Source of the DNA: Lachnospiraceae bacterium
GTDB taxonomy: Bacteria; Bacillota; Clostridia; Lachnospirales; Lachnospiraceae
Length of the DNA stretch: 44,518 nucleotides
Assembly: GCA_024403415.1 (NCBI GenBank)
Contig: JAKSRY010000018.1
Location: forward strand, 1 to 44,518
Reading direction: 5' to 3'
In this document: one piece after another, positions 9,075-42,810 of the stretch
Layout of the letters: every line of letters begins with the position of its first letter
Numbering within the stretch: the first letter of the stretch is position 1
Notes under the pieces: generated by a model
Seen by the model: only the letters and a program-made list of their open reading frames with translations
What the model was told of the DNA's origin: nothing
The model's database searches: none
Made by a program: the position numbers and the translations under genes

Positions 9075-9085
9075 CTTCTACCCTG

Positions 9086-19365: not shown

Positions 19366-19387
19366 ATTTCTTCTCCATAATTTTGGC

Positions 19388-20566
19388 CTACTGGTTTTCA
19401 GTATTTTCAACTGATGCAGCCTGTCCATCCATTTCAACACTCTGTGTATCCTGCAGCACTGTGTTCTGCACATTTTGCTGTGACATATCCATTGTGGTCT
19501 GCTGTGCTATTCCCTGTGCATTCTGCTGCATCATATCCGGTGCGTTCTGCTGTGCTGCAAGTCTTTTTGCTGCCTTTTTTCTTGCTGACTTAATGCACGT
19601 TCTGATTATAATTACTATAATGAGTGCAATTACTCCAAGGAGTAACAAAATAGGTAATGCTTCAATGAAAAATACAGCAAATGCCTGAAGAAAATCTACA
19701 AGATGTTCCCAGCCTGAAGAGAATGCACTCGAAATCTGATCTCCGAAAGTCTCGGGTTCAGGTTCTGTATACTCTTCAACCTCGTCAATGCTCATATATA
19801 TAGTTGTATATTCAACCAGATTATCATATGTCTTAAGTGTAGAAGTTAATGACTCAATTCTGTATCTAACATCAGCGAGACGCTCCTCGATATTGAGCAT
19901 ATCTTCTACCGTTTCAGCCTGTGACATAAATTCAAGCAGACGCTGCTGCTCTATTTCAAGAGACTTCTTACGGGTCTCTGTATCTACATAATTCATTGTA
20001 ACATCTTCAACCCCAACACTCTGGTTAATGATATTAGCCTTGTCACCGACAATTTGTAAAAAGTCATCTACTCTGTCCACAGGAATTCTGATTGTCAGAT
20101 TTGAATACTTTCTCTCTTTTTGTCTTGCAAAACTGCTACCGTTATATTCATTCATATCCTGAATATAACCACTTAGTTCTTTAATCTTATTCTGAATAAA
20201 CTGGTTAAACTGTTCAAATTCTTCGGTTTCAACAGAGAGGTTATATGTTTTAATAAGCTTTCGTGCTGAATCATTATAATTACCTGCTGAATTATCTGCA
20301 GAGCCATTCGCACTGTCGGATGGACTTTCTGCATACTCTTCTGCAAAAGCCTCCTCTGCTTCATACATGTCATAACCATAATCTCCTGTTGCCAGTGCTT
20401 CGGTTGCGACTGCTTCCTTAGTGTTCGCATATCTTGAACCTAATGTTTTTTCTGCTCTTGCTGTGTCACTATAAGATCCTCCGCAGCCTGTAAGCGAAAG
20501 TGCAAATGCCGTACCTATTGCTACAGCAACTATTCTGCTCTTTTTTAATATACCTGAATTTTTCAT
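19388..20566 (-). CDS. DUF4349 domain-containing lipoprotein
   Basis: A 392-residue membrane-anchored protein. The signal peptide ends in the lipobox LTGC (Cys28). The DUF4349 region (about 105-310) has the typical start KLIKTYNLSVETEEF, the strand SNLTIRIPVDRVDDFL and the long coiled-coil helix region around RKKSLEIEQQRLLEFMSQAE and IEERLADVRYRIESLTSTL. A membrane helix follows at about 305-330 (AVFFIEALPILLLLGVIALIIVIIII), then a cytoplasmic basic stretch and a Gln/Asn-rich tail (about 345-392). The tail has repeated QQNAQ/QQNVQ units. The function of DUF4349 is not established. The strong AAGGAGGAAAAAT ribosome site suggests good expression. Confidence 0.85.
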   Translation of the reverse strand: MKNSGILKKSRIVAVAIGTAFALSLTGCGGSYSDTARAEKTLGSRYANTKEAVATEALATGDYGYDMYEAEEAFAEEYAESPSDSANGSADNSAGNYNDSARKLIKTYNLSVETEEFEQFNQFIQNKIKELSGYIQDMNEYNGSSFARQKERKYSNLTIRIPVDRVDDFLQIVGDKANIINQSVGVEDVTMNYVDTETRKKSLEIEQQRLLEFMSQAETVEDMLNIEERLADVRYRIESLTSTLKTYDNLVEYTTIYMSIDEVEEYTEPEPETFGDQISSAFSSGWEHLVDFLQAFAVFFIEALPILLLLGVIALIIVIIIRTCIKSARKKAAKRLAAQQNAPDMMQQNAQGIAQQTTMDMSQQNVQNTVLQDTQSVEMDGQAASVENTENQ

Positions 20567-26855: not shown

Positions 26856-29396
26856 CTATTCATATAAGTCATCAAAATCAATATCTGAAGGTATTGGGAA
26901 ATTAAGATACTCATTTCCGGTATCCTGAAACCTGGCCGTCACGGTATTGTTTTTATAATCCTTTAATACACACATCCAACGTGCGCCCAAGGGTCTTTGG
27001 GATATACCATCCCAAAAACCAAGAGGAGTAATCTTGACATAAACATACAACTGGTTATCAATATTCTTATTAACCAGCATTCCTACCTGATATGCCGAAT
27101 CCGCAACATCATTCTTATACTCATATCTTCCATTGATAAGTGTATACGGCTGAAGAGTAGCACTACCATTCACATTTTTAGGTAATGAAGACGCTCCAAA
27201 AATTGGATTATCCCATTCGTTTCCGGTAAGATTTTTAGCTACATTGCTCTGATTCATTGAAATTCCTGTGAATACAGGTGAAAAGCTTACATAATATGAG
27301 CGTCTCTCATCATATCTAACGTCCCAGGAACCTATACCATCAGTTCTTTTACCTATCTTCAAAAGATATTTTTCTTCAGCTTTTTCAGCGTCTCTTGGAA
27401 GATAAGTTGTCTCCATATCTATTTTCTGACCAACATCAAAGTACCTAAAAAATCGTGTTCTTTTTCCAACCAATGTCAGAGTAACCGGTTCAACAACTAT
27501 AACCTGTTCGGTTGAATATGCCTTTGCTTCTACATCCGTCATAATGGTGAGGTTTCCATATTCATCTTCTTCATCAGATTCCGGAAGCATAAACCATTGC
27601 GCATCCTCATACTTTTCGGTTTTTGATATCTTAACTCGCAATCGTATTTTATATGTAAATGTCTTTTTCCAGTCAAGGTATGAATTAATATATGTTACTG
27701 CTATTGAATCCACCTGCGATGACGTAAATTTATGACCTGTTTTATTCTGCCAATTCTCTTTATACTTAAAATATACATTATTGAATGAATCCTTTTCACC
27801 GGTTTTCCAGTTTGCCTCGAAATCATCAGGATTTTTTTCCATTTCCCATACAAACCAATAGTAATAACGCTTCTCCTCTTTTGCCATTTGATCATTACTT
27901 TCTTTCAAAGTAACAGAATATGTGGGCGAACCTGATGACCATTGCGCAGAAACAGCATTATCAGTTCCTCGTAATGCAGGGGATGCTGCCAATATAACAG
28001 GCACGGACACTTCTTTGATTGGAGGTACTGCTCCTTTAGGGATTGTAATTGAGTGTTCAACCTTAACCGGCTCTCCCTGTTTATCTCTTTGCATTACTTC
28101 AGCTATAATTACGTAAGTATGTCCTTCCATGGACTTTGAGACAACAAAAGATCCATCCACGTTTCCGGTCGGATTAAGTCCTGCTCCTTCAGGCGGATTA
28201 TCACCCTTTTCAGTGTCAACTCGCATGGTTATCTTAGTATATGCTCCCTTTCCATCTAATGGATTAACCATGGTTCCGGGTCTTGTCTCATCCTCTATCC
28301 TACCGGTATAAAGAATTGAATATTCAAAATTATATATAAGCTGTCCTGTAGATAAGTCTTTCTTTTCCGTAGTCTTTGAAAGATTAATACTTACAGGATA
28401 AACTCCTCCGTCCTTAACCTTAATTCGTAGTCTGGCTTCCTTTGAATTATCTTCAACACTCGTAGCAATAATAACAAAATAGTTACCGTTCATATAATCC
28501 AGAGGCCCCTTAACTATCTGAGTTCCGTTGACAGTCTCTGTTTTCTTCTTTAAGGTAACCTTTCCATTTGAATCAATTGAAATATAGTCCTGATAGCCAT
28601 CCTTCACAGTTGACAAATCAATAGACCATGTTACGTCTGTATTAATTGATTCTGTATAATTCTTTTTCTTTTTAACTTCTGCATCATATTTAGCAGAAGT
28701 TACATCTCCGGCCATCTGTATCGTATCTGTTCTGTTTAATCCAAAGGGTTTTCCATCCCTATAGATAGTTACAGATGCAACATGAGAGTAGAATTCTATC
28801 ACATCGCCTTCATAATACTCATCAAACGAGATTTCCTCATCAACCTTCTTAATCATATTTCTAAGGGCAATTACAGGATTAACCTCAACCTCTCGTTCCC
28901 CTACTATGAATGCAATATTAAGTGTAACCTTTCCATTCTCAAGTTCATCAAGATTAAGACTGAACTTAGAAACATTATCACTAATCAACACTTCATTTCC
29001 AAAAGACAGACCATCGCTTAACTTAAAATCCTTTCCAACAGGAAAAGAAGCTGTATAAAGCTTATTTTCTTCAGCATCAAGCCTTATTTCTGTAATCATA
29101 CAAGGATTTATCGGCTTGCCGTTAGAATCAAATGTGGTATCGGGATTATCACTCATAATAAGAAGCTTATTATCTGTTTCATTGTAATTCACTCCACGGC
29201 TGGTTTCGAGAATCATATCCCTTACCCGGTTCACAACTATCTGCTGTTCATACTGCAGCTTAACATTGGTATTGCTGGTTGCAAAGTTTCTGGTGGCAAA
29301 AACAATGAAAGCACTAATAGCGATTCCTGCTATTGCAAAAATCGCCATCGCTACTATTAATTCTATTAAGGTCAGTCCTCGATTACTCTTTTTCAA
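26856..29396 (-). CDS. Minor pilin, GspJ/PilW-like, with very large C-terminal region
   Basis: An 846-residue prepilin. The N-terminus MKKSNRG^LTLIELIVAMAIFAI has a type IV prepilin peptidase site after Gly7 and Glu at +5. The next 60 residues (FATRNFATSNTNVKLQYEQ, then QIVVNRVRDMI) follow the GspJ/PilW pattern. Canonical GspJ is about 200 residues, so some 600 residues are extra. They are beta-rich and contain Ig/cadherin-like stretches, such as VYPVSINLSKTTEKKDLSTG and VKVEHSITIPKGAVPP. The start is TTG at 29396 with GGAGAAA upstream. It lies between the GspH-like pilin and the giant secreted protein. Together with the H-, I- and K-like proteins it probably forms the pilus tip. Confidence 0.85.
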   Translation of the reverse strand: MKKSNRGLTLIELIVAMAIFAIAGIAISAFIVFATRNFATSNTNVKLQYEQQIVVNRVRDMILETSRGVNYNETDNKLLIMSDNPDTTFDSNGKPINPCMITEIRLDAEENKLYTASFPVGKDFKLSDGLSFGNEVLISDNVSKFSLNLDELENGKVTLNIAFIVGEREVEVNPVIALRNMIKKVDEEISFDEYYEGDVIEFYSHVASVTIYRDGKPFGLNRTDTIQMAGDVTSAKYDAEVKKKKNYTESINTDVTWSIDLSTVKDGYQDYISIDSNGKVTLKKKTETVNGTQIVKGPLDYMNGNYFVIIATSVEDNSKEARLRIKVKDGGVYPVSINLSKTTEKKDLSTGQLIYNFEYSILYTGRIEDETRPGTMVNPLDGKGAYTKITMRVDTEKGDNPPEGAGLNPTGNVDGSFVVSKSMEGHTYVIIAEVMQRDKQGEPVKVEHSITIPKGAVPPIKEVSVPVILAASPALRGTDNAVSAQWSSGSPTYSVTLKESNDQMAKEEKRYYYWFVWEMEKNPDDFEANWKTGEKDSFNNVYFKYKENWQNKTGHKFTSSQVDSIAVTYINSYLDWKKTFTYKIRLRVKISKTEKYEDAQWFMLPESDEEDEYGNLTIMTDVEAKAYSTEQVIVVEPVTLTLVGKRTRFFRYFDVGQKIDMETTYLPRDAEKAEEKYLLKIGKRTDGIGSWDVRYDERRSYYVSFSPVFTGISMNQSNVAKNLTGNEWDNPIFGASSLPKNVNGSATLQPYTLINGRYEYKNDVADSAYQVGMLVNKNIDNQLYVYVKITPLGFWDGISQRPLGARWMCVLKDYKNNTVTARFQDTGNEYLNFPIPSDIDFDDLYE

Positions 29397-29414: not shown

Positions 29415-30098
29415 CTAGTTATCAATAATGGTATGTTTTCCTGTTTCCGGTACTATTTCTATAATGTATCGCGCTTCATCTACATTAGTTTCATCATCTG
29501 ATCTAAAAAAATATATTTTACGAATTGTACTCTTGGCACTTTTAGTTCCTGTTGACACATCATAGGAATAATTCTTCATAGCACCGCTCTTTCGATCAAA
29601 TTCAATAGAAACGGGAGCAGTCTTAGGACTAGTCAAAGACCCATCCTCGTATTCTACAAGAATTCCTACACTGTCAGTCCCAAGATATGTATACTCATGG
29701 TCATTCGGTCCATCCGTAACAACGCTTTCAGATCCATCCAAGGAATGCTCTATCTTTTTAACGTATTTGTCTGCATAATATCCTGTCTTCTCAACCCCGA
29801 CATCCTGCCAGTCTTTGCCGGAATACGGACAGGAATCACTGTCAACATCTATATATCTTAAGTCAAGAATTTCTCCTGCCCGTGTCATTGCGCCTGTTTT
29901 AACATCATTAAGCTGAGAATCAAGTTTCTCTGCCGCTTCTTTTGCGTTGGCACTTGAAAGAAGCATTAAAGATAATATGCCTGCACTCATCATAACAGTC
30001 ATAAGAGCGATGACAATAACAAGTTCAACAAGAGACATACCCTTGTTTGCATTGTTTTTATATTCAGATTTCTTAAAACAATTAATTAATCTCAACAT
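29415..30098 (-). CDS. Minor pilin, GspH/FimU-like
   Basis: A 227-residue prepilin. After a 20-residue leader the site NKG^MSLVELVIVIALM has Gly20 at -1 and Glu at +5. The mature N-terminus then reads SAGILSLMLLSSANAKEAAEKL, and SQLNDVKTGAMTRAG follows; this resembles the GspH/FimT/FimU pattern. The globular part (about 75-227) is beta-rich and acidic. The ATG overlaps the end of the K-like gene by 17 nt and its ribosome site is weak, so translational coupling is likely. Position and length fit the H/FimU role, with moderate certainty about the exact subtype. Confidence 0.82.
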   Translation of the reverse strand: MLRLINCFKKSEYKNNANKGMSLVELVIVIALMTVMMSAGILSLMLLSSANAKEAAEKLDSQLNDVKTGAMTRAGEILDLRYIDVDSDSCPYSGKDWQDVGVEKTGYYADKYVKKIEHSLDGSESVVTDGPNDHEYTYLGTDSVGILVEYEDGSLTSPKTAPVSIEFDRKSGAMKNYSYDVSTGTKSAKSTIRKIYFFRSDDETNVDEARYIIEIVPETGKHTIIDN

Positions 30099-32493
30099 TC
30101 TTTGTCCAATTACTAAATTCTACAAGTTCAGATATTCCTGTATTAGGATTATCCCCATCACCTTCTGACAGATACTCAATTTCTGATGAATCCTCAAACA
30201 GTTCCGATACCTTATACACATTGGTATCATCAGTAAACAAAAGCATGCATTCTTCAACTGCCTTAGGCTTTGCCTCCATATCAATTGCTTGCGGAAGCAC
30301 CAGTTTTCCTCTTGCAATAATAGTTCCCTTAAATGATGAACCACTCAAAGATATACTTCCATTTGTTACGATAAGATTCAGGTCCGAACCATAGGAACTA
30401 AGATTTATATTTTTAACATTATTATCCAGATAATTATTAAGATTCTCAGTTGCCGCCTTTAAGTCAGCCTCCGTATTTGCATTATCAACAGCCTTAAGCT
30501 TATTATCTGCTTCCTCATCATATATAAGCAATACTCTCGTTTTTCCATCAGAATCCTTTATCTCATATATATTAGAAGAACCATCCACAATTTCTTTTAA
30601 GGCTTCCGAGTTAACAAGATTTTCAAACACGGCCTTATTATCACCCTGTCTTGCCTTTTCCCCCTGAAGGTTATCAACATCCGGTGTCAATTTAGTAGTA
30701 TAACCTTCAAACTGTGTGGAATAAGTCTTAAAATCGTCATCAAATATCTCCTGAATATTTAGATTTGTTCCGGAAGTATCTCTTAATGCATTAACTCTGA
30801 CTCTCTCACCGGATTCATAATCATCTCCAAGTGCATAGCCTCCCATATTGAGCATAAGCGAAGTATTATTATACTTTGAATCCGGGAATCTTATGCTTTT
30901 AATATATAAATCTAAATATTTGTCCACAGAATCCTTATTTACACCATAGTACTGAGCAAAATACTGATTAGCTTTTTCAGGTGTTTCAAAAACCATATAA
31001 TAGTAAGTAAAATTAATCCCATCTGAAGACCTGATGACTATTTTTTCGATAGCACTTTTCGGATTTGAAGAATCAAGAAAATCTCCAAGGAAATATTCCC
31101 CTGCTCCCAATATACTTATCTTCTTATTAAAAGCTACTTCCTGATATTCATCATTATGCTCTATAAGATAGTTATACTGATCCGAATCAATAGGATTTCG
31201 ATTAAACAAAGAATCTCCTCCTGTAATTGGCACACCAATACACTCCGGCGGAACCAGATACATCATCTGTTCCGACTTACCGGAAATAGATGATCCAAAG
31301 AATACCTGTCCACTCTTAACAGTGCTGTCAAAGGGACTCGTATTAGCAAAACTTCTTCCTGCAAGAGACAGCCTCTTTACATATGTAAAGTCAAGAACTG
31401 CATCCTTTCCGTTAATAAGTATTGCACTACTAGCCTCACCATCTGTATATGAATTACTGTAACCATAATATTCACCTATCATAGTTACATTAGAATCTTT
31501 TCCACGTACGTCTATATCATCTTTAACGTAAGTCTTTCCATCAAGATAAAAGTCGGACGAATTAACTGTAATATCATCAGCCCAAAGTCTTGTGGACAGA
31601 TGGGTTGTGATCTTTCCACTTTTCATATTGATATCAGATGCCACAATATGCGTTTCACTTGGAGAATCAGATGACGCCAAATCAAGATTGACTCCTTCCA
31701 TATCTATGGAATATGCATATGAATCACCTTTAATCGTTGTTGGATAAGCACTGTTTTTGGTTCTGCCGCCATTCTTCTGTTCAAGTTTGGTATCTGTAAT
31801 AAAGCAATAGCTGCTGACATCTGGCATTGTCGGATTAGCAAAGCTGAAACCTGGATAATTAAGATGAATATCTGTTTTAATTGCCGACACAAAGCCGTTA
31901 CCATCCTGGTAATATACAATCAAATCCTTAAGATAAACACCTTCGTTTTGATATTCAACCATCTCACCTACATAGCTGCCATCCTTAAAGTCATTTCCTC
32001 GCAAAAAAGCTCCATATCCATATTCTTCGGAGCTGGCTGCAGGATGCCATTGTGTTGAAGACTTAAGAAATCTGTACAATCCCTTTGAAGAACCATCCGC
32101 CGGCATTGCTATGTATTGTCCGCCTTTTCCGTTAAGACCCAGCTGTTCCTCAATATTCTTAAAGAATTCAGCCTTTACAAGTTCGTTTTTAGCTGAGGAA
32201 CTCATATCCTCATCGGAATAGTTCTTAAGCACAGATACATATGCAGAACTTAAGCTGTCAGCAGATAACTGCTGCAGACCAACTTTAATTTCATCAAGTA
32301 CCTGCTCTGCAGAATAGAAAGAATCTTTCGAAAATGCATTAACCGAACGCATTTTATAGTTAACAACAGAAGTCGTCAGAATAATACTTACAAGCACACA
32401 AACAAAGCCGACCGCCACGATAACTGAAATAATCGACATTCCTTCATTATTCTTTATTAACTTGTCTCGGAATTTCTTAATTATTCCAGACAT
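30082..32493 (-). CDS. Minor pilin, GspK/PilX-like, lacking Glu5, with beta-helix region
   Basis: An 803-residue prepilin-like protein. The leader ends NNEG^MSIISVIVAVGF, with Gly18 at -1 but Ser, not Glu, at +5 (residue 23). Among pseudopilins the absence of Glu5 is a known feature of GspK, the tip subunit. The mature start continues VNYKMRSVNAFSKDSFYSAEQVLDEI, like PilX/GspK. The rest is far larger than usual. Its middle (about 250-400) has short repeated strands (DDITVNSSDFYLDGK, VKDDIDVRGKDSNVT) that suggest a right-handed beta-helix, and SLSGSSFKGTIIARGKLVLP recurs near the C-terminus. The start overlaps the stop of the I-like gene as TAATG, with GAGGAG upstream. Confidence 0.82.
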   Translation of the reverse strand: MSGIIKKFRDKLIKNNEGMSIISVIVAVGFVCVLVSIILTTSVVNYKMRSVNAFSKDSFYSAEQVLDEIKVGLQQLSADSLSSAYVSVLKNYSDEDMSSSAKNELVKAEFFKNIEEQLGLNGKGGQYIAMPADGSSKGLYRFLKSSTQWHPAASSEEYGYGAFLRGNDFKDGSYVGEMVEYQNEGVYLKDLIVYYQDGNGFVSAIKTDIHLNYPGFSFANPTMPDVSSYCFITDTKLEQKNGGRTKNSAYPTTIKGDSYAYSIDMEGVNLDLASSDSPSETHIVASDINMKSGKITTHLSTRLWADDITVNSSDFYLDGKTYVKDDIDVRGKDSNVTMIGEYYGYSNSYTDGEASSAILINGKDAVLDFTYVKRLSLAGRSFANTSPFDSTVKSGQVFFGSSISGKSEQMMYLVPPECIGVPITGGDSLFNRNPIDSDQYNYLIEHNDEYQEVAFNKKISILGAGEYFLGDFLDSSNPKSAIEKIVIRSSDGINFTYYYMVFETPEKANQYFAQYYGVNKDSVDKYLDLYIKSIRFPDSKYNNTSLMLNMGGYALGDDYESGERVRVNALRDTSGTNLNIQEIFDDDFKTYSTQFEGYTTKLTPDVDNLQGEKARQGDNKAVFENLVNSEALKEIVDGSSNIYEIKDSDGKTRVLLIYDEEADNKLKAVDNANTEADLKAATENLNNYLDNNVKNINLSSYGSDLNLIVTNGSISLSGSSFKGTIIARGKLVLPQAIDMEAKPKAVEECMLLFTDDTNVYKVSELFEDSSEIEYLSEGDGDNPNTGISELVEFSNWTKNVEIN

Positions 32494-33884
32494 TATTTTT
32501 TCTCCTCGTCTAACATAGTTCCACTCATACTAACCTTTATTGGCCATTCAATAGCCGCTTCCTCTTCAGTCTGAGTCTGTTCAATTTCAACAGTAACATT
32601 ATAGAACCTGTCTGTTATTTCATTTGCATCAAGAGTACGTCCATCAAGAGCATATTTTTTCATATACTTAAACTGCGATTTGACAGATGCCTCAAAAGAA
32701 GATGACAGCAAAGCTTTACTTTTAAGCTTATTGTATGTAGAATCATCAAATTCTGTAATAATTCCTTCCGGATCCTGTTCCTTTTCATATGCAGTCAGGA
32801 AACATTTAATCGGAACCGCTGTAATTTCCTTTGTTGAATCCTTATAATAATCAACCTTACTTTCGTCAATAAGATTAGTATATATGCTAACCGGACACTC
32901 TTCCTTAGTCATATTCTTTCCGTATAACTCAAGAATCAGTCCTCTTTTAGCAGCCATATAATTAGCATAACTATCCCCATGACTTTCAGTGTTCTGTGCA
33001 ATTATATACAGCTTAAATTCCAATCCATCCGGATTATGAACAGTAATAATATCACCCTCATGTGGTGCAGCAAGATAGCGTGGTTCATACATGATAAACA
33101 CTGAATTCAGTTGTTTTTTAGTGACCTTATTATCAAAAATCCTACTGCTTTGAGCCTTATACATTGAATCGGCTAATTCTATCGTATTTCCTGAATCACC
33201 GGCAAGAAGATAGGCAACAGTAACATCTACAGTTGCATGAACAATCGGATTTCCCTCACTATCCAATTCAGCAAGATTACCGGTGCTTTTAACCTCTACT
33301 TTAATTTCACGTTTTAAGTTTTCCTCAAAAAAAGATTTTGGTTGTGCAACAATTGTTGATGAAGATGGCTTCGCAAGATATGTTTCATGCTTTGCCAGAT
33401 ATTCACCGTAAACTTTGTCATCAAGTGTTGGACTCATGACGTAAATTGCATCGCAATTGGAAGAAACCGAATCAAAGGATGCCGGATTCAGAGAATTTGT
33501 ATTGGGATAATATCCCGGATCAAGAGTAATTTTTGCTGTAAAGCCACTATCAATAGCATCATTTAAGTCATCATCAAAATCAGGACTTGTAGACGTGATA
33601 TTAATTTCATACATTCCGTTCTCATCAGGCTCAAGTTCTGATGGATCCTGACAATATTTATTTAGTATACTATTCTTATTATTAGCCTTTATATCTTCCA
33701 TGATATTTTCGGCAGCATCTGTGGCATACATCTTCAACTTGGATTTTCCCGTAGTAGTAGCGGATGTCATAAATGCATGCAAAATAGGAATTGATACAAT
33801 TGCCAGGATGATAATGGCTATCAACACCTCAAGAAGCGTAAATGCTTTATTATTCTTCGATTGTGGAAGGGGTAACTTCCTCAT
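32493..33884 (-). CDS. Minor pilin, GspI/PilV-like, enlarged
   Basis: A 463-residue prepilin. The ATG at 33884 is chosen because GGAGAA precedes it and it lies 1 nt after the pilO-like stop; an ATG at 33908 lacks a ribosome site. The site is NNKA^FTLLEVLIAIIIL (Ala14 at -1, Glu at +5). The FTLLEVLIAI form, with the following KSKLKMYATDAAENIMEDIK, is characteristic of GspI/PilV. The remaining 380 residues are an enlarged, mixed alpha/beta domain with many Asp and Ser. It is the first of four consecutive minor pilins. The Ala in place of Gly at the cleavage site is tolerated by some prepilin peptidases. Confidence 0.84.
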   Translation of the reverse strand: MRKLPLPQSKNNKAFTLLEVLIAIIILAIVSIPILHAFMTSATTTGKSKLKMYATDAAENIMEDIKANNKNSILNKYCQDPSELEPDENGMYEINITSTSPDFDDDLNDAIDSGFTAKITLDPGYYPNTNSLNPASFDSVSSNCDAIYVMSPTLDDKVYGEYLAKHETYLAKPSSSTIVAQPKSFFEENLKREIKVEVKSTGNLAELDSEGNPIVHATVDVTVAYLLAGDSGNTIELADSMYKAQSSRIFDNKVTKKQLNSVFIMYEPRYLAAPHEGDIITVHNPDGLEFKLYIIAQNTESHGDSYANYMAAKRGLILELYGKNMTKEECPVSIYTNLIDESKVDYYKDSTKEITAVPIKCFLTAYEKEQDPEGIITEFDDSTYNKLKSKALLSSSFEASVKSQFKYMKKYALDGRTLDANEITDRFYNVTVEIEQTQTEEEAAIEWPIKVSMSGTMLDEEKK

Positions 33885-33885
33885 T

Positions 33886-34668
33886 TTATTCTCCGTCTTC
33901 TCCTGCATAATCTGCTAAAGTAATAGTTCCATTAGCCATAGCTGATCCATCTCCGTCAATTGAGTGGAACAGATTTGACTGTCCCTTGGGAACTGAAGGA
34001 ATAAATGGTGCAGAGTATTCCTTATCCATACCTTCAATATAGTACAATTCCATTGCAACATTTCCCTCAAGCAGTCCGTCTTCTTCTCTGTACATTACCT
34101 GGAAAGATAAAATTGCATTCTCGTTATACTGCATATTTATATAATCAAACATCTTTTTCATTCCGGAATATGTAGAAAGGAAGTTCATTGCAGTCGGAGC
34201 ACCGCACAATTTATATTTAGCTGCAAGATCGGCAGCTTCAGTATCTGAAATCTGTGGATTACCTCCATCCTGGTAAATAATATTGCTGCCTTCGAGATTT
34301 TCTACTCCTGCGACAGCAACAATATCTCGTTCTTCCATATCAATAGCCTTAAATGCTAAATCAAACGGATATGCATTATCGATGCTTGCCCAGAACATTA
34401 ACTGATCTTCTGTTCTTACTTCAGCAGGGAATCTATCTTCTATTTCGCCTCTTAACAGGTCATAATTAATCCTGTCCTTGGCAAATTCTTCCTTTCGAAG
34501 GTCTATAGCCTGATATTCTTCGGCTTTAGTTCTCAGTTCAACATTCTTTGCTTTAAGTGAATCGGTTTCATCCATTGTCGGGCTGATATATAAGAACCAT
34601 GCTGCAACGAAAATGAGTATACCGAGCAAACCTATGAGTAAATCACGTTCTGACTTTTTGATTTTCAT
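33886..34668 (-). CDS. PilO-like inner-membrane assembly protein
   Basis: A 260-residue membrane protein. It has one N-terminal membrane helix (about 10-28, LLIGLLGILIFVAAWFLYI), a coiled-coil stretch (about 33-75, SLKAKNVELRTKAEEYQ) and a ferredoxin-like C-terminal domain (about 80-230) ending in FQVMYREEDGLLEGNVAMELYYIEG. This is the PilO layout. It directly follows the PilM-PilN fusion gene with no gap, as PilO follows PilN in other systems. PilN and PilO form the heterodimer that links the PilM/PilB base to the pilus. Sequence identity to known PilO proteins cannot be judged here, so the call relies on topology and context. Confidence 0.78.
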   Translation of the reverse strand: MKIKKSERDLLIGLLGILIFVAAWFLYISPTMDETDSLKAKNVELRTKAEEYQAIDLRKEEFAKDRINYDLLRGEIEDRFPAEVRTEDQLMFWASIDNAYPFDLAFKAIDMEERDIVAVAGVENLEGSNIIYQDGGNPQISDTEAADLAAKYKLCGAPTAMNFLSTYSGMKKMFDYINMQYNENAILSFQVMYREEDGLLEGNVAMELYYIEGMDKEYSAPFIPSVPKGQSNLFHSIDGDGSAMANGTITLADYAGEDGE

Positions 34669-36468
34669 TTATTCGCCCTCCCCTTCTTCATCTTCGCCAT
34701 CTGTCTCATATTCAATCGGTGCATAATATAACTCCACTGAGAAACCATACAGAACTTCTCCAAGTTCGTTCTCCAAATATGCTACAGATGCAAGGTCAAC
34801 ACTTGAAAAACATTCTATCTTTTTAAGTTCACTGACAACATAAGCGGTTTCAGCCTTACTTGAAACAGTTGCATCAAGTGTAATCTTCTCTGTATCACCG
34901 ACCATACTGTTAAGGCAGAAGGTATACGGCATCTTCTCTTCTAACGTATTAATCAGCTCAACTATGTCATCATTCCTGTTTCTTGTTTCCTTTTCAATCA
35001 GCTTCATATATTCATAATTGTATCTTGAATTCATATAAAGCACATATTCATCATAGGACGGTTGCAGGTCGGCAATTGTTCTCTCATACCCCTTCTTTTT
35101 GTCCTTTTCAGCCTTATTAGGAATGAACGATAGTACAGACATTGCCACTGCTGCGATTACTCCGGCTGCAAAAATAACAACTGCTATAAGCGTTGAATTC
35201 ACACTTGAAGAAGATGCGGCTTTCTTTCCGGATTTTCCCTCTTCATGATCCGGATAAAAACTAACAGGCGCAATTGATGCTCCTATAAGTGATACATATT
35301 CACCATATGTAACCTCCTTGAAAACCTTTTCGATGTCAATTCCCGCAAGATGAGTAAGATTTCTGATATTCATGTTAAGTTCATTACTCATCAGTGTTGA
35401 TATTCCAGAAAAATCAGCACCAACACCTGTAATGAATCCTTTTTCGATAGGTCTTTGCGAGTGATTTGAATTATAATAATCAACTACCCTCAGTATTCCA
35501 CCAACAAGAGTTCTCAATGAATTGGTTACTGCAATTCTTTCCTGATGAGAACTAGCCACTACTGCAGAATCATCCGGCATATTATTACTGAAAGAATTCA
35601 GAATAACTGTCTTCTTTCTGGCAAAATCAAGTGCCTGAACAAAGGAATCAAACTGTCCGAATTCAGTGCTTCTTTGAATTGCTTCGACACCATCACTGAT
35701 TCCATATGGAATAGATCTGTTCAAAGAAATCATTCCATCTTCAAGCACCATAATAAAGGAACCACCGGCGTCAATCTTAACAATCATCTGAACACCTTCA
35801 TTACACTCTTCTTTAGCTGCCTGAAAAACGGAATTACCATTATAATCAATAGCCACAACTTCAAGTCCGAGTGTTGTAGCAAGCTTTTCATAGCTGTTAA
35901 TCAACTGTCTGGGAGCTGCCAGCAGTGAAAGCTTATACCCTGTAGGCTTTCCCAATGACGGCTTAGCAAGTTTAACCTTCTTATCAGCCACAGTTCCATC
36001 ATTCATTCCATTATTGGCTGTTCCGTCAGGATTTTGATTAGCCTGCTGATTAACATTGGCAGGTACCGCTGCTCCCATGCCCGGTGCCGAATCTCTGACA
36101 ATACCGATTATAGAATGTGAGAATAAATATAGAGACGGATTGACCGGAAAATACTCCGAAAGATTAGCTCTTACAATATCCTGAATTCTGTTTTCTTTAA
36201 CATACGGAATAACTGCTTCACGGGTTGCAATACGGCTACTTACAACAGTAAAAATAACCTTTTTGCTCTTCATTCCTTTTTCAGCACTTAATCGCTTAAA
36301 TTCCGTAATAAACTGTTCATTAAGAATAACTCCGGCATCACCTATCATATTTTCAGGTGTTTCAAACACGAAGCTGTTCATAATTTTAGGTGTCTTTCCG
36401 CCGCGTTCAATTTCGCAGACTTTGGTAAGTACCTGCCCTATTTCAACGCTTAAAACACGTTCAGCCAT
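34669..36468 (-). CDS. PilM-PilN fusion, T4P assembly platform
   Basis: A 599-residue protein. The N-terminal part (about 1-415) is an actin-like PilM: AERVLSVEIGQVLTKVCEIE at the start, VIPYVKENRIQDIVRANLSEYFP, IDYNGNSVFQ, and the GGSF nucleotide-site pattern in VKIDAGGSFIMVLEDG. A Gln/Asn/Pro-rich insertion lies at about 130-160. A membrane helix (about 425-447, STLIAVVIFAAGVIAAVAM) is followed by a coiled coil and a ferredoxin-like domain, which match PilN. In most bacteria PilM and PilN are separate and PilM binds a short N-terminal PilN peptide. The ATG at 36468 with GGGAGAAAAGAG upstream is preferred to a TTG at 36489. Confidence 0.82.
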   Translation of the reverse strand: MAERVLSVEIGQVLTKVCEIERGGKTPKIMNSFVFETPENMIGDAGVILNEQFITEFKRLSAEKGMKSKKVIFTVVSSRIATREAVIPYVKENRIQDIVRANLSEYFPVNPSLYLFSHSIIGIVRDSAPGMGAAVPANVNQQANQNPDGTANNGMNDGTVADKKVKLAKPSLGKPTGYKLSLLAAPRQLINSYEKLATTLGLEVVAIDYNGNSVFQAAKEECNEGVQMIVKIDAGGSFIMVLEDGMISLNRSIPYGISDGVEAIQRSTEFGQFDSFVQALDFARKKTVILNSFSNNMPDDSAVVASSHQERIAVTNSLRTLVGGILRVVDYYNSNHSQRPIEKGFITGVGADFSGISTLMSNELNMNIRNLTHLAGIDIEKVFKEVTYGEYVSLIGASIAPVSFYPDHEEGKSGKKAASSSSVNSTLIAVVIFAAGVIAAVAMSVLSFIPNKAEKDKKKGYERTIADLQPSYDEYVLYMNSRYNYEYMKLIEKETRNRNDDIVELINTLEEKMPYTFCLNSMVGDTEKITLDATVSSKAETAYVVSELKKIECFSSVDLASVAYLENELGEVLYGFSVELYYAPIEYETDGEDEEGEGE

Positions 36469-36518
36469 CTCTTTTCTCCCTCTAACCAAACCTTAATTTA
36501 CAAATTCTATTATTAACA

Positions 36519-36538
36519 ATAAATGACGAATCATTTAT
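36519..36538 (-). promoter_or_regulatory. UUCG-capped hairpin between the lipidated pilin gene and pilM
   Basis: A perfect 8-bp inverted repeat (ATAAATGA / TCATTTAT) closes a TTCG loop on the minus strand, an unusually stable tetraloop type. The stem is AT-rich and no T-run follows. It occupies the 111-nt spacer between the pilin-like lipoprotein and pilM and may mark an mRNA processing or stability site within the operon. Confidence 0.45.
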
Positions 36539-36579
36539 ATATAATTTTCAACTAAAAATTCATTAAAATATTATCTATT

Positions 36580-37059
36580 CTAGTAGCTGCTTCCATCAGC
36601 CCAGCGGTATTGTCCGTGTACCTCTGAGGCATTACTGGTCCAAAGATAGTTTTCATATGTATAAATAATATTGTCTGACCACTCCGCATAAACATCCGCA
36701 ACATGATCAGCATTATTTACGCCATATTCCTTCAAAAAGTCCTCTCCACCAACACCTTCAGGTCTGTCAATTCTGATATATCCTCTATTAGTGTCTAGGA
36801 TAACTTTGAACACTGAGTCTCTTTGCAAGCCTTTATCTGCAACAAAGCACTCTATCGCAGCACATATTTCAGTTATATTGGAAAGATCTGTTTCTTCCTG
36901 ATTCCTGGTAACCTGTTCTATTCCGATGTCAACCAGTTCCTTTTCAACCTCTAACTCCGCTACTGTACCACATGCAGTAAGTGCAAAGGCCATTCCAATC
37001 ACCAATATCATACAGATAAGCTTTTTATATAGTTTCAAACTTCTAAATATATTTTTCAT
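36580..37059 (-). CDS. Lipoprotein carrying a type IV pilin head domain
   Basis: A 159-residue lipoprotein. The signal peptide MKNIFRSLKLYKK-LICMILVIGMAFALTAC has a perfect LTAC lipobox with Cys30. The mature part is clearly paralogous to the short pilin two genes upstream. Both share TDL-x-NITE (57-64 here, 43-50 there), then IE-x-x-VADKG, a F-x-V strand, EYG, and W-x-DN-x-I followed by Y-x-x-Y-x-W. It therefore has the pilin globular domain but no prepilin signal and no hydrophobic alpha-1N. It would be tethered to the outer leaflet of the membrane and could not enter a pilus by the normal route. ATG 37059 is chosen for its signal peptide; its ribosome site is weak. Confidence 0.8.
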   Translation of the reverse strand: MKNIFRSLKLYKKLICMILVIGMAFALTACGTVAELEVEKELVDIGIEQVTRNQEETDLSNITEICAAIECFVADKGLQRDSVFKVILDTNRGYIRIDRPEGVGGEDFLKEYGVNNADHVADVYAEWSDNIIYTYENYLWTSNASEVHGQYRWADGSSY

Positions 37060-37087
37060 CTCACTACTCTTTTCAAATTTGAAAGAT

Positions 37088-37852
37088 TTACACTCCAAGC
37101 AATGAAAGATACCAGGTTATGATTTCATTTCCAAACAGGCAGGAAATAGCAATCCCCGCAGAAAGATAAGGTCCAAAAGCCAATGTATGATCCTTATCCG
37201 ATACCTTCATTCTTATGACATGTATGACTGCACCTAAAACACAGCCGATAAGGAATGCCAATATGATACGCTTCCAGCCAAGCATAAAGCCTGCTGCAGC
37301 CATGAGTTTCATATCGCCTCCACCCATCCCGCGTCCGCGGGTGAGGATAATAATCAATTCAATAAATACGCTGACAGCAAAAAATCCAATGACATGGAGC
37401 AGCCAGTCATTGTAATTAATCGCAGTAGTGATACATCCTAACGCAAATATAAACACATTGATTCCAAAGGGAATTTCATGTGTTCTCTCATCAATAACGC
37501 TCAGTGTTATCAGCGCTGATATTAACAGGCAGTAGAGTAGGGAATCTACATTCACCCCGTTAATAAAAAATATACCTAAATAAGCCAAGCCGTTCAGCCC
37601 CTCAATAAGAGGGTACTGAACAGAAAGCTTAGTTCCGCATGCGCGGCATTTGCCCTTTTGAATAACAAAACTAAACAGCGGTATTAATTCATACCATTTA
37701 AGTTTATGTCCGCATGACATGCAGTGCGAGCGCACTACGACAATATTCTCTTTTTTCGGTATGCGGTATATGCATACATTCAGGAAACTGCCTATCACTA
37801 TACCGTAGAGGAAGATGATAATGTAGAGCAGTATGTTAATCAAAGTGGGCAT
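37088..37852 (-). CDS. pilD: Prepilin peptidase / N-methyltransferase PilD (A24 family)
   Basis: This bifunctional membrane enzyme cleaves prepilins after the conserved Gly and N-methylates the new N-terminus. The 254-residue protein has the zinc-binding Cys pairs Cys44/Cys47 (CMSCG) and Cys69/Cys72 (CRACG). The two catalytic aspartates of the A24 family are visible at Asp121 (VIDERTHEIP) and Asp180 (GRGMGGGDMKLM). Eight or so hydrophobic helices are seen, as expected. It lies directly downstream of the short pilin gene (11 nt) and probably processes all six prepilin-type proteins of the operon. No strong ribosome site is visible before the ATG, so coupling to the pilin gene is likely. Confidence 0.96.
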   Translation of the reverse strand: MPTLINILLYIIIFLYGIVIGSFLNVCIYRIPKKENIVVVRSHCMSCGHKLKWYELIPLFSFVIQKGKCRACGTKLSVQYPLIEGLNGLAYLGIFFINGVNVDSLLYCLLISALITLSVIDERTHEIPFGINVFIFALGCITTAINYNDWLLHVIGFFAVSVFIELIIILTRGRGMGGGDMKLMAAAGFMLGWKRIILAFLIGCVLGAVIHVIRMKVSDKDHTLAFGPYLSAGIAISCLFGNEIITWYLSLLGV

Positions 37853-37863
37853 ATCAATTTCGA

Positions 37864-38295
37864 TTATTCAACTTCGTCGCCGTTAGCATCTAAGTATGCT
37901 GCCTTAGAAACAGTAGTGAGCTTCCACTGGTAGTCCTTATACTTCCACTCAATTGTATTATCCCACTCTTCTGACTCAACAGGCGCAACTGCTGCCATAC
38001 TAGCAATACCATATTCAGCAAGAGCATCATCATCAACATCTGTTGCTGTGATTGAAATATCAGAATTAATAGCTGCAGTAACTGTAAACTCTGTTGATCC
38101 TTTAATACCCTTATCAGCTACATAAGTCTCAATTGTAGTCTTAGCTTCAGTGATATTCTGAAGATCTGTTGATTCTCTTCCTTTTTCTACGAATTTGATG
38201 AACTGAGGAGCTAATACAACAATCAAAACTGCCATAATAGCAATAACAATAATCAATTCAACAAGTGAGAAACCTTCATTATTCTTTTTCTTCAT
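37864..38295 (-). CDS. Short type IV pilin, likely the major pilin
   Basis: A 143-residue prepilin with a short leader. The site is NNEG^FSLVELIIVIAIM (Gly8 at -1, Phe at +1, Glu at +5). The hydrophobic alpha-1 helix runs to about 32, followed by APQFIKFVEKGRES and a small C-terminal domain ending ANGDEVE. It is the shortest pilin in the operon. It also has the best ribosome site (AAGGAGA), both consistent with the major subunit. No disulfide Cys pair is present. It is a paralogue of the lipoprotein encoded two genes downstream. That it is the main filament subunit is an inference. Confidence 0.88.
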   Translation of the reverse strand: MKKKNNEGFSLVELIIVIAIMAVLIVVLAPQFIKFVEKGRESTDLQNITEAKTTIETYVADKGIKGSTEFTVTAAINSDISITATDVDDDALAEYGIASMAAVAPVESEEWDNTIEWKYKDYQWKLTTVSKAAYLDANGDEVE

Positions 38296-38372
38296 ACCTT
38301 TAGTCTCCTTTATTTTTTATTTATCAAAATCCCCGCCCCTACATCGGAGAATAATGAACTGTTAATATATTT

Positions 38373-39587
38373 TTACAAGTTATCAAGTGACTCGTACATT
38401 GTAAGCATCGGTGCCATAATTGAAGCAATTAGTAAAATTACAATTCCGGCAAGTACGATAATAATCATTGGTTCCAAAGCAGCCGTCAATGACTGTGTTG
38501 CCATTTCGACTTCCTCATCATAATAGTCAGCCAGTTTAATCATCATTTCTTCTGTATTACCGGCTTCTTCACCAATTCGTATCATATGATACATCATAGG
38601 CGGAAAAAGTCCTGATTCTTCAAGCGGAACCGATAACGGAACACCCTTTACAACCTCTTCCTTGGCATTTCGCATAGCCTGCTTAAACAGCTGATTCTGC
38701 ATTGTATCTGCACATATATCAACAGCTTCAACCAAGGGAACTCCGGCAGCAAGAAGTGTTGAAAGCGTTCTTGATATCTGTGAACAGGCTCCCTTAACCG
38801 ACATATTCTTAGTAATTGGAAATTTCAAAATAAGTTTACTCTTAAGTAATTTTCCGCTGTCAGTCTTTCCATACATTTTAAGTCCGACTACAATAGCCAC
38901 CACAATAGCCAGAATAATAATCCAGTTATCAATCAGGAAATTCGATGCCGACTGAACAGCCTTTGTTATTCCAGGCAAATCAGCACCAAGGTCTTTAAAC
39001 ATATCGGAATAAGCAGGTATAACCTTAACAAGCATCAATATAACTGCACCAACAGCAACCAGACCTACCATTATAGGATATATCATGGCTTTTTTAAGCA
39101 TTGCAGCTATTTTTGCTGACTTTTCATACTGGTCAGCCATTCTCTCCATGGATATTTCAAGAGAACCTGACTGTTCACCGGCGCTGATGGTTGTAATCAT
39201 AAGCTCGGAGAATATTTTAGGATGCTTCGAAAGACCGGTTGCCAAAGATTCACCCTTTTCAACTTCAGCCTGAACTTCTCTGATAGCCTTAGCCAGTTTC
39301 TTGTTTTGTGTCTGATCTCTCAACAGTGTCAAACACTCCAATATCGAAACTCCGGCTCTCGACATAGATACAAACTGTCTGCAAAAAACTGCCAGATCTC
39401 TTGGGGTGGGCGCCTTATCAAAGCTGATATTAATATCTTTTTGTAGAACGCTTGCTTCTGTAAGCTGGGTTACAATATATCCCTTAGCCTTGAGCGAAGC
39501 TCTTACCTGATTTTCGTTTTCGCCCTCTATGGAACCCTTCAGCATTTTCCCATCCTGAGAAAACGCTTCATAGGTAAAACTTGCCAT
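38373..39587 (-). CDS. pilC: T4P inner-membrane platform protein PilC
   Basis: PilC forms the membrane platform that the PilB ATPase turns or shifts to add pilin subunits. At 404 residues it has the usual length. Two T2SSF domains are visible, at about 65-185 (FCRQFVSMSRAGVSILECLT, later LEISMERMADQYEK) and about 265-390 (FSRTLSTLLAAGVPLVEA-like CSQISRTLSTLLAAGVPLV). The membrane helices are at about 168-190, 214-234 and 375-396. The start MASFTYEAFSQDGKMLKGSIEGEN is the typical N-terminal domain. It lies after pilB with an AT-rich spacer. Confidence 0.97.
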   Translation of the reverse strand: MASFTYEAFSQDGKMLKGSIEGENENQVRASLKAKGYIVTQLTEASVLQKDINISFDKAPTPRDLAVFCRQFVSMSRAGVSILECLTLLRDQTQNKKLAKAIREVQAEVEKGESLATGLSKHPKIFSELMITTISAGEQSGSLEISMERMADQYEKSAKIAAMLKKAMIYPIMVGLVAVGAVILMLVKVIPAYSDMFKDLGADLPGITKAVQSASNFLIDNWIIILAIVVAIVVGLKMYGKTDSGKLLKSKLILKFPITKNMSVKGACSQISRTLSTLLAAGVPLVEAVDICADTMQNQLFKQAMRNAKEEVVKGVPLSVPLEESGLFPPMMYHMIRIGEEAGNTEEMMIKLADYYDEEVEMATQSLTAALEPMIIIVLAGIVILLIASIMAPMLTMYESLDNL

Positions 39588-39699: not shown

Positions 39700-41394
39700 T
39701 TAAGAATCGAAACTTACTTTCTTCATCTCCTGAACGGATGTAATTCCGTCAAGAACATATCTTGTAGCGCTCATACGCAGTGTGTTCATTCCTTCTTTAA
39801 GTGCCTGTTCTTTAATCTGATCAGCATTTCCGCCTGCTGCGATAACATTTTTAAGATCATGCGTCAATTCCATAATCTCATATACACCGATACGGCCTTT
39901 ATAACCTGTGTTTTCGCATAATTTACAGCCCTTATGTCGGTATATTCTCGGGGGATTGGCAGGGTCAACATTTAATAATGCGCTTTCCTCCTCATCCGGA
40001 GTATATTCCTCTCGGCATGCCGGACATAATCTTCTTACAAGTCGTTGCGCGATAATACCAACCGTTGCATCCGCTATCAGATAATCTTCAATTCCCATGT
40101 CTTCAAGACGCGTAATTGTACTAGCTGCGCTGTTTGTATGCAGTGTGGATACAACCAAATGTCCGGTTATGGAAGCCTGAACCGCAATTGATGCAGTTTC
40201 AGTGTCTCGAATTTCTCCAATCATGATAATATCAGGGTCCTGACGGAGGATAGATCTTAAAGCTGATGCAAATGTAAGATTTGCCTTATTATTAACCTGA
40301 ACCTGATTGATACCATCAATATTTGCTTCGACAGGATCTTCAACCGTTATGATGTTAACCTCTGAACTGTTAAGCTCAGAAAGTGCTGTATACAAGGTTG
40401 TTGATTTACCTGATCCTGTAGGACCTGTTACAAGCAGTATTCCATGCGGATTTGAAAGAATGTGGTCAAATACCTTAAGTTCTTCAGGGTTAAGACCTAA
40501 ATCTTTCTTCTCTCTTGTTAATGCAGTCTTGGAAGTAAGACGCATAACTATCTTTTCACCATAAACTGTAGGAAGTATGGATACACGGATATCATACTCA
40601 AGTCTGTCGACAATCTGTGTGATACGACCATCCTGTGGTTTACGCTTTTCAGCAATATCCATTCCACCGATAATTTTAATTCTGGCAACCAGTGCAGGAA
40701 GGATTCTGCTCGAGTAAACATTCCTTTCGTATAAAGTTCCGTCTATTCTATATCGGATACGAACCTGTTTTTCCATAGGTTCAATATGAATATCTGAAGA
40801 TCTTTGTCTAACAGCCTGCTCAATCATTGACTTAACCAACTGAACAATCGGCGAGTTATTAACATCTTCACTATATAAATCTTCGTTTTCTTCGGTATCT
40901 TCTGATTCTTTTCCTTTAGTATATTCATCCAGCTGATCTTTTAACTGACTCTGACCAAAGAGTCTGTCGAGAACCATATGAATACTTTTAGGTGTTGCAA
41001 CAACAGGTTCAACTGTAAGATTTGTGATAATGGCAATATCATCGATAGCTGCCATATCCATTGGATCTGCCATGGCAACGCGGATCATATTAGGGTTATC
41101 ATCCGGGATTTCAAACGGAAGAACCGTATATTTATACAAAATCTTCTGATCAACTAAAAACTTAATACTATCAGGGATTTCAACATCCGATGGATTAATG
41201 ATTTGAAAACCAAGCTGGTTTGACAACGCAGACGCAATTGCTTCTTCAGAGCAAATACCGGTTTCAACCAAAGTCACTCCAAGCTTATGCCCTGTAACCT
41301 TTTGCTTGTCCAGCCCCTCTTTTAATTGTTCTAAGGTGATAGCTCCTCCATCAACAAGGATATCACCAAGTCTCTTTTTTCTTCTGAGTTCCAT
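39700..41394 (-). CDS. pilB: T4P assembly ATPase PilB with MshEN domain
   Basis: PilB powers pilus extension. The 564-residue protein starts with an MshEN domain: two 24-residue units, residues 8-31 (fitting RLGxxLVxxGxIxxxxLxxxLxxQ) and 37-60, with a 5-residue spacer. In MshE this pair binds c-di-GMP. The catalytic part has Walker A GPTGSGKST (324-332), an Asp box in ITVEDPVE, Walker B around PDIIMIGEIRDTETA and the His box ISTLHTNSA-type VVSTLHTN. The four-Cys zinc site is also present (CPACREEY, then CKLCENTG). All catalytic motifs of an extension ATPase are intact. It is the second gene of the operon. Confidence 0.97.
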   Translation of the reverse strand: MELRRKKRLGDILVDGGAITLEQLKEGLDKQKVTGHKLGVTLVETGICSEEAIASALSNQLGFQIINPSDVEIPDSIKFLVDQKILYKYTVLPFEIPDDNPNMIRVAMADPMDMAAIDDIAIITNLTVEPVVATPKSIHMVLDRLFGQSQLKDQLDEYTKGKESEDTEENEDLYSEDVNNSPIVQLVKSMIEQAVRQRSSDIHIEPMEKQVRIRYRIDGTLYERNVYSSRILPALVARIKIIGGMDIAEKRKPQDGRITQIVDRLEYDIRVSILPTVYGEKIVMRLTSKTALTREKKDLGLNPEELKVFDHILSNPHGILLVTGPTGSGKSTTLYTALSELNSSEVNIITVEDPVEANIDGINQVQVNNKANLTFASALRSILRQDPDIIMIGEIRDTETASIAVQASITGHLVVSTLHTNSAASTITRLEDMGIEDYLIADATVGIIAQRLVRRLCPACREEYTPDEEESALLNVDPANPPRIYRHKGCKLCENTGYKGRIGVYEIMELTHDLKNVIAAGGNADQIKEQALKEGMNTLRMSATRYVLDGITSVQEMKKVSFDS

Positions 41395-41448: not shown

Positions 41449-42810
41449 TTAGTCATCTTCATCCTCATATTTAACAGGGGCACTGTTGACTCGATATACA
41501 TTTCCTACCTTATCAACACTGTAACTTAGTATTTTATCAAGTGGAATAATAGGATTTTCCATTCCGCCTCTCTGCCAATATGCATAATCGTATGCAAGAT
41601 TATTTTTTTTATCAATGAATCTAAACAAATCTCCGGGAGTAGCCTGACTCATCGTGTACTGGCTTCCTGCAGGGGCATTCGTAATATCTACTTCCCTGAT
41701 ATTTCCGCTTAACGGGATAAGCCATTGCCTGCTTGCTTCTGAAGCATAAATTTCCGGGCTTTCCGCCTCACTTAAGTTAATCTTCTGCGAGCCATCTGCT
41801 CCGTTTTCATTCTGACCGACAACAACAAATTGTTTGCCGGCAAGAGATGTAAACACTCCGGACGGGCAGGTAATATCTATCCACATTTCATTAAAATTAC
41901 CATTAAGATTCGCTGCACGATATTCACCTGCGTGATATTTTGCTAAATCTTCTGCATTCCACCACGAAAGATCACTCGCGTATGGCCATACTTTTCCAAG
42001 CTGTGCTCCTTCCCATTTTGCATGGAGAGTGTAATTATGCATAATCGGAGTATCAAAATCAAAAGGAGTGCTGAATGACGCATCCTCATACCATCCGCAA
42101 AAATCGTACAACGCAGCATTAGGATTCGATGGTTTGGTTGCCTTGTCTCCTTCTTTAATATTGGTCTGAGGCGCAGGTGCTATTCCATGGCCATGCATAT
42201 TAAAAGACACTGTATATCTTTTCTCGGATTCAGGTGACGGAGTCGGTGTCGGTTTTACAACAGGATTATCATTCTCCTGTGTCGGGGCAGGTACAAGATT
42301 CAATGCGATCATATCTGCCACAACAACGCTTTCCATCGTATCTTCATTATCGTATCCCGAAGCCCCACATTCTGTACACTTGATAATAGCCGTATTCGTA
42401 TCTGCATCTATGCTTGCTACCCATATTCCACTAGTAAGCTGTTCGTGCTCGCCATAAGTCGGACAATGAAGATATGGAGCAAGTTCCGAGTCAATTGCCG
42501 CGTAACCTGTGGTTGTGTTGACATCAATAAGTTTATTCAAATCAGCCACATTAAACTCAATTATATCTGAAGTTTCGTAGACACATCTTTGAAAGACACT
42601 AAGTACCGCTTCTCTGTTATGTCTGCAGGTCTGAACCCTCTTTCTTGCAGCACTGCTCATAAACGAAGGTACTAAGAGACTTGCAAGCGCAGCAATTAAA
42701 GCGATAACGATAATAAGCTCAATGAGACTAAAACCTCCTTGAGCGCTTCTTTTCGTTTCACCATATGCTTCAGATTTACAGACTTTTTTTTGTAATAATA
42801 GAGTTTTCAA
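41449..42810 (-). CDS. Type IV pilin with C-terminal InlB-type repeat
   Basis: A 453-residue prepilin and the first gene of the operon. The leader is long; the site is AQGG^FSLIELIIVIALI (Gly26 at -1, Glu at +5). The mature helix runs on to SSAARKRVQTCRHNREA. Cysteines occur at HCPTYG (116) and CTECG (145/148). A Pro/Thr linker (about 186-196) leads to an InlB B-repeat-like (Flg_new) domain (about 197-268, KRYTVSFNMHGHGIAP to YTLHAKWE), then a C-terminal domain of about 180 residues. The start is TTG 42810 with AGGGA upstream; no in-frame ATG fits. It could be an adhesive minor pilin or a second filament subunit. Confidence 0.82.
   Translation of the reverse strand: MKTLLLQKKVCKSEAYGETKRSAQGGFSLIELIIVIALIAALASLLVPSFMSSAARKRVQTCRHNREAVLSVFQRCVYETSDIIEFNVADLNKLIDVNTTTGYAAIDSELAPYLHCPTYGEHEQLTSGIWVASIDADTNTAIIKCTECGASGYDNEDTMESVVVADMIALNLVPAPTQENDNPVVKPTPTPSPESEKRYTVSFNMHGHGIAPAPQTNIKEGDKATKPSNPNAALYDFCGWYEDASFSTPFDFDTPIMHNYTLHAKWEGAQLGKVWPYASDLSWWNAEDLAKYHAGEYRAANLNGNFNEMWIDITCPSGVFTSLAGKQFVVVGQNENGADGSQKINLSEAESPEIYASEASRQWLIPLSGNIREVDITNAPAGSQYTMSQATPGDLFRFIDKKNNLAYDYAYWQRGGMENPIIPLDKILSYSVDKVGNVYRVNSAPVKYEDEDD

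Follow-up and report, generated by a model that had tools for sequence, protein, structure and literature searches.

A pilin-type head on a predicted lipoprotein encoded between pilD and pilM in a Lachnospiraceae type IV pilus operon

The type IV pilus operon and the gene between pilD and pilM

We analyzed contig JAKSRY010000018.1 of a Lachnospiraceae bacterium along its whole 44,518-nt stretch, here called the window. On its minus strand is an ordinary PilB-C-A-D-M-N/O type IV pilus (T4P) operon, which reads pilin-like gene, pilB, pilC, pilA, pilD, LP, pilM, pilN/O-like gene, and minor pilins, where LP denotes the lipoprotein with a pilin-type head that is studied here and that lies between pilD and pilM. 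All operon genes below are on this strand. The order begins with a class III pilin-like protein that has a Flg_new repeat domain (41449..42810; PF07963, PF09479), followed by the extension ATPase PilB with its MshEN domain (39700..41394; PF00437, PF05157, and TIGR02538 at 1.1e-178, which is under the model cut-off) and the platform protein PilC (38373..39587; PF00482 at 4.6e-61 and GspF/PilC models). Next comes a PilA-type pilin with a class III N-terminus (37864..38295), which matches N_methyl at 6e-8 and has phmmer matches to solved type IV pilins; from its place in the operon we infer that it is the major pilin. The prepilin peptidase gene pilD (37088..37852; PF06750, PF01478) adjoins LP upstream. 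Downstream, LP adjoins pilM (34669..36489, likely ATG at 36468 by eye), identified by synteny and by TIGR01175 at 2e-19, under the cut-off of that model; the C-terminal part of its product weakly matches PilN. The pilN/O-like gene (33886..34668) matches no T4P family and is named from its place and from similarity in relatives. Beyond it lie a PilV/GspI-like minor pilin (32493..33908; PF07963), a large cluster protein that has no Pfam match and is similar in relatives (30082..32493), a GspH-like minor pilin recognized by family matches (29415..30098), and a large class III pilin-like protein (26856..29396), in which PF07963 matches over cut-off at 29316-29390.

There were no terminator-like sites in 34500-38500, and promoter-like sites around LP were at chance level (17 versus 13.4 expected). 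The congener G001 has the same gene order, with PilD 75% and PilM 54% identical. Elsewhere in the genome of our bacterium, G000, we found a PilT-type ATPase (G000:C77:7115-8158). It is 68% identical to a protein of L068 (JAILIS010000032.1), a Lachnospiraceae MAG with a related pilin; this L068 protein scores above the cut-off of the PilT family. The assembly gene set together with this ATPase suggests a pilus that extends and retracts. Since the N-terminus of the pilB product is an MshEN, or c-di-GMP-binding, type domain, pilus extension may also answer to c-di-GMP. Directly 3′ of the minor pilins, 20785-26844 (minus strand) encodes an exported-looking protein of 2019 aa that has DUF5057 (1.9e-34) and a long run of GGEPGTGGDEPGG repeats and might be a surface partner of the pilus. 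A flagellar block at 57-13977 (FliM, MotA/MotB, FlgE, FliI, FliG, and FliF-like, all named by eye) shares its strand with the T4P operon, and a CodY-like gene and a topoisomerase I-like gene lie between the two.

The LP open reading frame (ORF; 36580..37059, minus strand) is intact and encodes 159 aa plus a stop. Its first 29 residues are a class II (lipoprotein) signal, which with Cys30 covers 36970..37059. A charged tether of 16 residues (residues 31-46; 36922..36969) follows where the pilin has its hydrophobic alpha-1N of 24 residues, and the pilin-type head (residues 47-159; 36583..36921) comprises upper helix 1, EYG, EW..N.I.Y.Y..Y.W, and the C-terminal Y..ADG. The signal, MKNIFRSLKLYKKLICMILVIGMAFALTAC, has a basic n-region, a hydrophobic h-region, and the lipobox LTAC at Cys30. 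We judged it by eye and with a regular expression, and it is the same lipobox that the initial annotation had pointed out. Further lipoprotein signals occur in the window: LTGC, clear by eye, opens ORF 19388-20566, and a likely CTAC, also seen by eye, lies inside ORF 18739-19473. The lipoprotein pathway therefore seems to be in use. We found no match for LspA in G000, a MAG that is 87% complete. Since LspA is present in all five congeners, the likely reason is a gap in the assembly.

Homology of the head and loss of the polymerization elements

An alignment between LP and the pilin of the operon had been claimed from the first look at this DNA, and the claim is well borne out. In BLASTP, LP residues 47-140 align with residues 33-124 of the pilin at 38% identity over 95 aa (E 2e-14). 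Not one of 2000 shuffles scored as high as the real pair (52.4 bits, versus 25.4 for the best shuffle). An hhalign comparison of LP with seven pilins, LP itself being left out, gave a probability of 96.8% and E 2.3e-10 over pilin columns 33-139. LP and the L068 pilin share 33% identity along 111 aa in an alignment that reaches almost to the C-terminus (E 2.6e-12 for a small set). Apart from LP itself, the LP query matched in its own genome the pilin (3.7e-11) and, at chance level, one further sequence (0.279). PDB sequence searches with LP and with a head profile matched no pilin, which is neutral as to fold. Judged from these comparisons, the LP head is homologous to a type IV pilin head, far beyond chance.

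The class III N-terminus of type IV pilins is signal, membrane anchor, and filament core in one. Passages in PMC4471445 and PMC10191384 give this class III signal as the mark of pilins, versus the class II signal of lipoproteins. According to one current model, outlined in a passage of PMC10191384, pilins wait in the membrane, and the platform clamps them below the head and pulls them out. LP shares with the PilA-type pilins of Lachnospiraceae the head, which begins at upper helix 1 and runs through to the C-terminus (38% identity with the pilin of its own operon). However, these pilins have the class III site, Glu5, and a hydrophobic alpha-1N, and LP has a class II signal and Cys30 instead. 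Indeed, the Pfam N_methyl model has no match in LP, and a search of its own genome with that model gave six matches, none of them at LP. Mean hydropathy is 0.225 for the LP tether, compared with 2.59 for alpha-1N of the pilin. Thus the earlier statement that LP has neither a prepilin signal nor the hydrophobic alpha-1N is correct, as is the remark that the two Cys of its ICAAIEC motif are not present in the window pilin.

We then compared helix 1 of LP with the commonest residue per position in 91 PilA-type pilins of the family, window pilin included. The BLAST alignment of LP with the pilin is gapless over positions 25-34. With helix 1 split post hoc into positions 25-34 and 35-55, a division that rests on ten positions, LP has one of the seven residues conserved above 60% in the lower part (V28 among K26, Y27, V28, E29, S31, R32, and S34) and the window pilin has five, whereas in the upper part LP has all three (D36, A46, and D53) and the window pilin two. 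This pattern and the hydropathy of the tether suggest that the change in LP ends at about the border between the filament-building part and the head. With the class III site, Glu5, and alpha-1N gone and the residues at the base of helix 1 lost, the usual polymerization route is closed to LP, as had been proposed; to go by its sequence, LP cannot be a normal pilin subunit. By membership criteria such as the class III signal, LP is thus not classed as a type IV pilin, although its head is homologous to one.

Distribution, constraint, and age of LP

We found no match for LP in five congeners, of which only G001 has the operon; there, pilM follows pilD after 42 bp, with no LP in the slot. The other four have no T4P operon: three have no PilD match, and G004 has a lone peptidase, whose PilD match we rejected as a T4P operon because it is a short peptidase ORF adjoining a topoisomerase gene.

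A wider comparison covered 75 family loci, namely the window, L036, L068, and 72 regions picked by similarity to the window pilin. Both pilD and pilM are present in 65 of them, and in the slot between the two genes we see LP at one locus, a PilA-type pilin at another (L115), and GspH-like pilins at two more (L111 and L140). LP is therefore the sole lipoprotein seen in this slot among the 65 loci, the three other occupants being class III pilins; here the 11 slots longer than 200 bp (window included) were inspected, and for the 54 shorter slots the judgment rested chiefly on length. The seven remaining slots above 200 bp had no convincing same-strand gene, with short ORFs in two. We also surveyed 135 Clostridia loci, 60 of them from other families of the class, in which 145 ORFs passed a loose lipobox test. 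Among the 93 ORFs compared (52 with 30 or fewer residues after the Cys were left out, and 4 with a prepilin motif are unlisted), no second lipobox protein with a pilin head was present besides LP. One flagged ORF, in L088 (E 1.4e-8), was rejected since its Cys is inside alpha-1N of a class III minor pilin; the next match was only 0.007.

Whole-genome searches gave the same picture. With all of LP as query, 58 of 397 family genomes had matches with E up to 0.01, the best outside G000 being 1.3e-5. These mostly begin in the signal region, and some run deep into the head (G187 11-128, G231 2-131, G325 10-139). None of these places recurs when the same 397 genomes are searched with the head profile. 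That profile search matched 25 places in 22 genomes, and all but LP are prepilins matched from query residue 1-5, as compared by eye. It gave no second case of LP in the 397 family genomes or in four genomes of the G057 genus, and the pairs that it matched in G057 and G402 are class III pilins, not LP. In L224, L216, and L226, matches without the motif were discounted because the ORF calls are likely truncated or frameshifted. A contig scan with LP had no match; the same scan with the window pilin gave three loci (L068, L069, and L070), of which L068 was used, and the 4.7-kb ORF list of L069 held no T4P machinery. LP is a singleton so far, as judged in the genomes searched. The initial annotation had called for the LP/pilin pair in related genomes and named a failure to find it as refuting the idea. 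No such pair turned up among the congeners, the 397 family genomes, or the 135 loci. Because the homology of LP and the pilin is far beyond chance, we read this as the mark of a rare, lineage-specific gene, not as a lack of homology; four of the five congeners have no operon in any case.

Is LP kept as a protein? Identity is 60, 48, and 41% at first, second, and third codon positions, respectively. By the NG86 method, dN is 0.72 and dS is 1.63, the latter close to saturation. In a crude simulation of neutral decay to 55% identity, 2.85% of 2000 copies were stop-free. Taken together, the intact frame, the codon pattern, and the simulation favor LP being a kept protein, short of proof. A comparison of LP with the pilins of the window and of L068 covered 102 columns: 28 are identical in all three and 26 in the two pilins alone, as against 6 for LP and the window pilin alone and 7 for LP and the L068 pilin alone. 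These counts, small as they are, suggest that LP split off before the window and L068 pilins parted, so it is perhaps an old copy, which may elsewhere have been lost or never have been there. A tree of 12 heads did not settle the placement of LP and carries a long-branch warning.

A possible role at the pilus base

The explanation that we prefer, tentatively and with doubt still slightly outweighing belief, is that LP is an old pilA paralogue that now serves as a fixed, non-polymerizing pilin head acting at the pilus base. On this account pilA would have been duplicated, with one copy coming to lie in the pilD-pilM slot, and in this copy a lipoprotein signal with Cys30 and a charged tether would have replaced the class III N-terminus (cleavage site, Glu5, and alpha-1N). 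The product, exported by Sec and lipidated, would sit on the outer side of the cytoplasmic membrane with its head raised above the surface, and it could be neither extracted from the membrane nor packed into a filament in the usual way. The platform might then engage the lipid-fixed head yet never incorporate it. As a pilin look-alike at the base, LP would bind pilins or the platform and so restrain, anchor, or end assembly. A place at the base is suggested by the encoding of LP with the PilM-N/O-C platform and by its retention of the upper head. The class III pilins in the pilD-pilM slot of L115, L111, and L140 provide a precedent for its position. Against a base role, one would expect a component of the machinery to occur in further species. 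The initial annotation had offered docking, capping, seeding, or regulation of pili, or a store of head domains, as possible roles; among these we set aside the store as the least plausible, since a separate polypeptide without alpha-1N would not be able to become a pilin.

Mfa2 is reportedly a fimbrillin-like lipoprotein itself, and we take its fold and that of LP to be unrelated. According to a passage in PMC5954841, Mfa2 of Porphyromonas anchors the Mfa1 (type V) fimbria at its base and terminates its elongation. By analogy, the LP head could be a built-in base anchor or elongation stop that limits or tethers pili and is convergent with the anchors of type V fimbriae, which in this specific form we think doubtful. 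Mfa2 is a lead for how LP may work only: its polymer differs, it sits in a diderm outer membrane, and searches of LP against Pfam and NCBIfam, with E values to 1, show no fimbrillin domain (type V, FimA/Mfa2 type).

Several other explanations deserve consideration. The head may have been co-opted outside pilus assembly, for example as a membrane-bound binder of a pilus ligand or as a surface decoy, an option that is conceivable and still rather unlikely. The polymerization parts are gone while the head is retained, and the same set of T4P genes is found at other loci that lack LP, so LP, judging from the genes, would be unlike a required assembly part. However, LP sits amid assembly genes, adjoining pilD and pilM, and the pilin heads of the family vary so strongly that a kept ligand site would not be recognizable. 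LP could also be a relic, a duplicate pilin that gained a lipoprotein signal by chance and drifts without important function. Its singleton status in the searches made and its early and far divergence fit this, but the frame is intact, the class II signal complete, and the head motifs kept to the C-terminal end; furthermore, identity drops along the codon from first to third position, and few of the copies in the neutral simulation stay stop-free. On balance we hold drift of this kind to be unlikely.

In diderms, according to passages in PMC4471445 and PMC6916266, PilP is an inner-membrane lipoprotein (the former source) that is needed for PilN-PilO stability and joins the assembly complex to the secretin (the latter, which also gives it as absent in Streptococcus sanguinis). 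The LP gene is directly 5′ of pilM and pilN/O, and LP resembles PilP in being a small membrane protein of lipoprotein type within a T4P gene set, so, in a bacterium that has neither secretin nor PilP, it might replace the latter and steady PilM-N/O. We consider this improbable: the domain differs, being a pilin head, LP matches no PilP family of Pfam or NCBIfam at E values to 1, and most family loci have PilM with the slot empty. Still less probable is that LP remains in the pilus, for instance at the base, with its acyl chains standing in for alpha-1N. The homology to the pilin and the presence of the assembly genes would agree with this, but Glu5, alpha-1N, and most of the conserved residues at 26-34 are missing. 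Finally, since LP was found in one draft MAG only, one might think of a chance resemblance or an artefact of gene calling. We give this next to no weight: the BLASTP score (E 2e-14), the shuffles (0 of 2000), and hhalign (96.8%) led us to reject chance similarity, and the flanking genes are conserved.

We return to the preferred explanation, a fixed pilin head at the pilus base. A described form to compare with LP is the S-pilin of Neisseria PilE, a pilin head without alpha-1N (passage in PMC6370729); the S-pilin is cleaved off and soluble, while LP has its own gene and a lipoprotein signal. Among the matches listed in the open-access literature, no lipoprotein with a T4P pilin head is described, in line with what the initial annotation had supposed, and the phrase "lipidated pilin" is met for a conjugative pilin. 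LP separates the function of the pilin head from polymerization, with the head freed from the class III element and given a lipoprotein signal. It could be a natural tool for studying how the head alone contacts other pilins or the assembly platform. It also shows a way for a pilus subunit to turn into a fixed membrane protein. Should control of pilus assembly prove to be its role, LP would be a T4P regulator of a new kind.

Other pilin copies were met during the survey. In L094, from genome G256, an ordinary pilin at 9520-10041 stands beside a paralogue of 134 aa (L094:10694-11098, plus strand), a pilin-head protein that is encoded directly before pilD and has a membrane helix but no GFxxxE (KSKGLIVLIVVIALLVVLF). 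Like LP, it is a pilin copy adjoining pilD without a class III motif; unlike LP, it has kept a membrane helix and, by eye, residues of the P22/K26/E29/R32 type, and it has no lipobox. It may represent a second way for a pilin copy to leave the polymerization route, which would suggest that the class III site can be lost repeatedly among pilin copies. PilA-type pilins akin to the window pilin occur as tandem pairs in two genomes of the G057 genus, at L071:8271-9165 (plus strand), before pilD, and in G402:C106. The pilin head of the window is 39% identical to that of G001 (L036:10984-11406) over 67 aa and 49% identical to that of L068 over 110 aa. PilD has the reverse order of closeness to the window, 75% in G001 versus 59% in L068, and pilin heads may have been exchanged between lineages.
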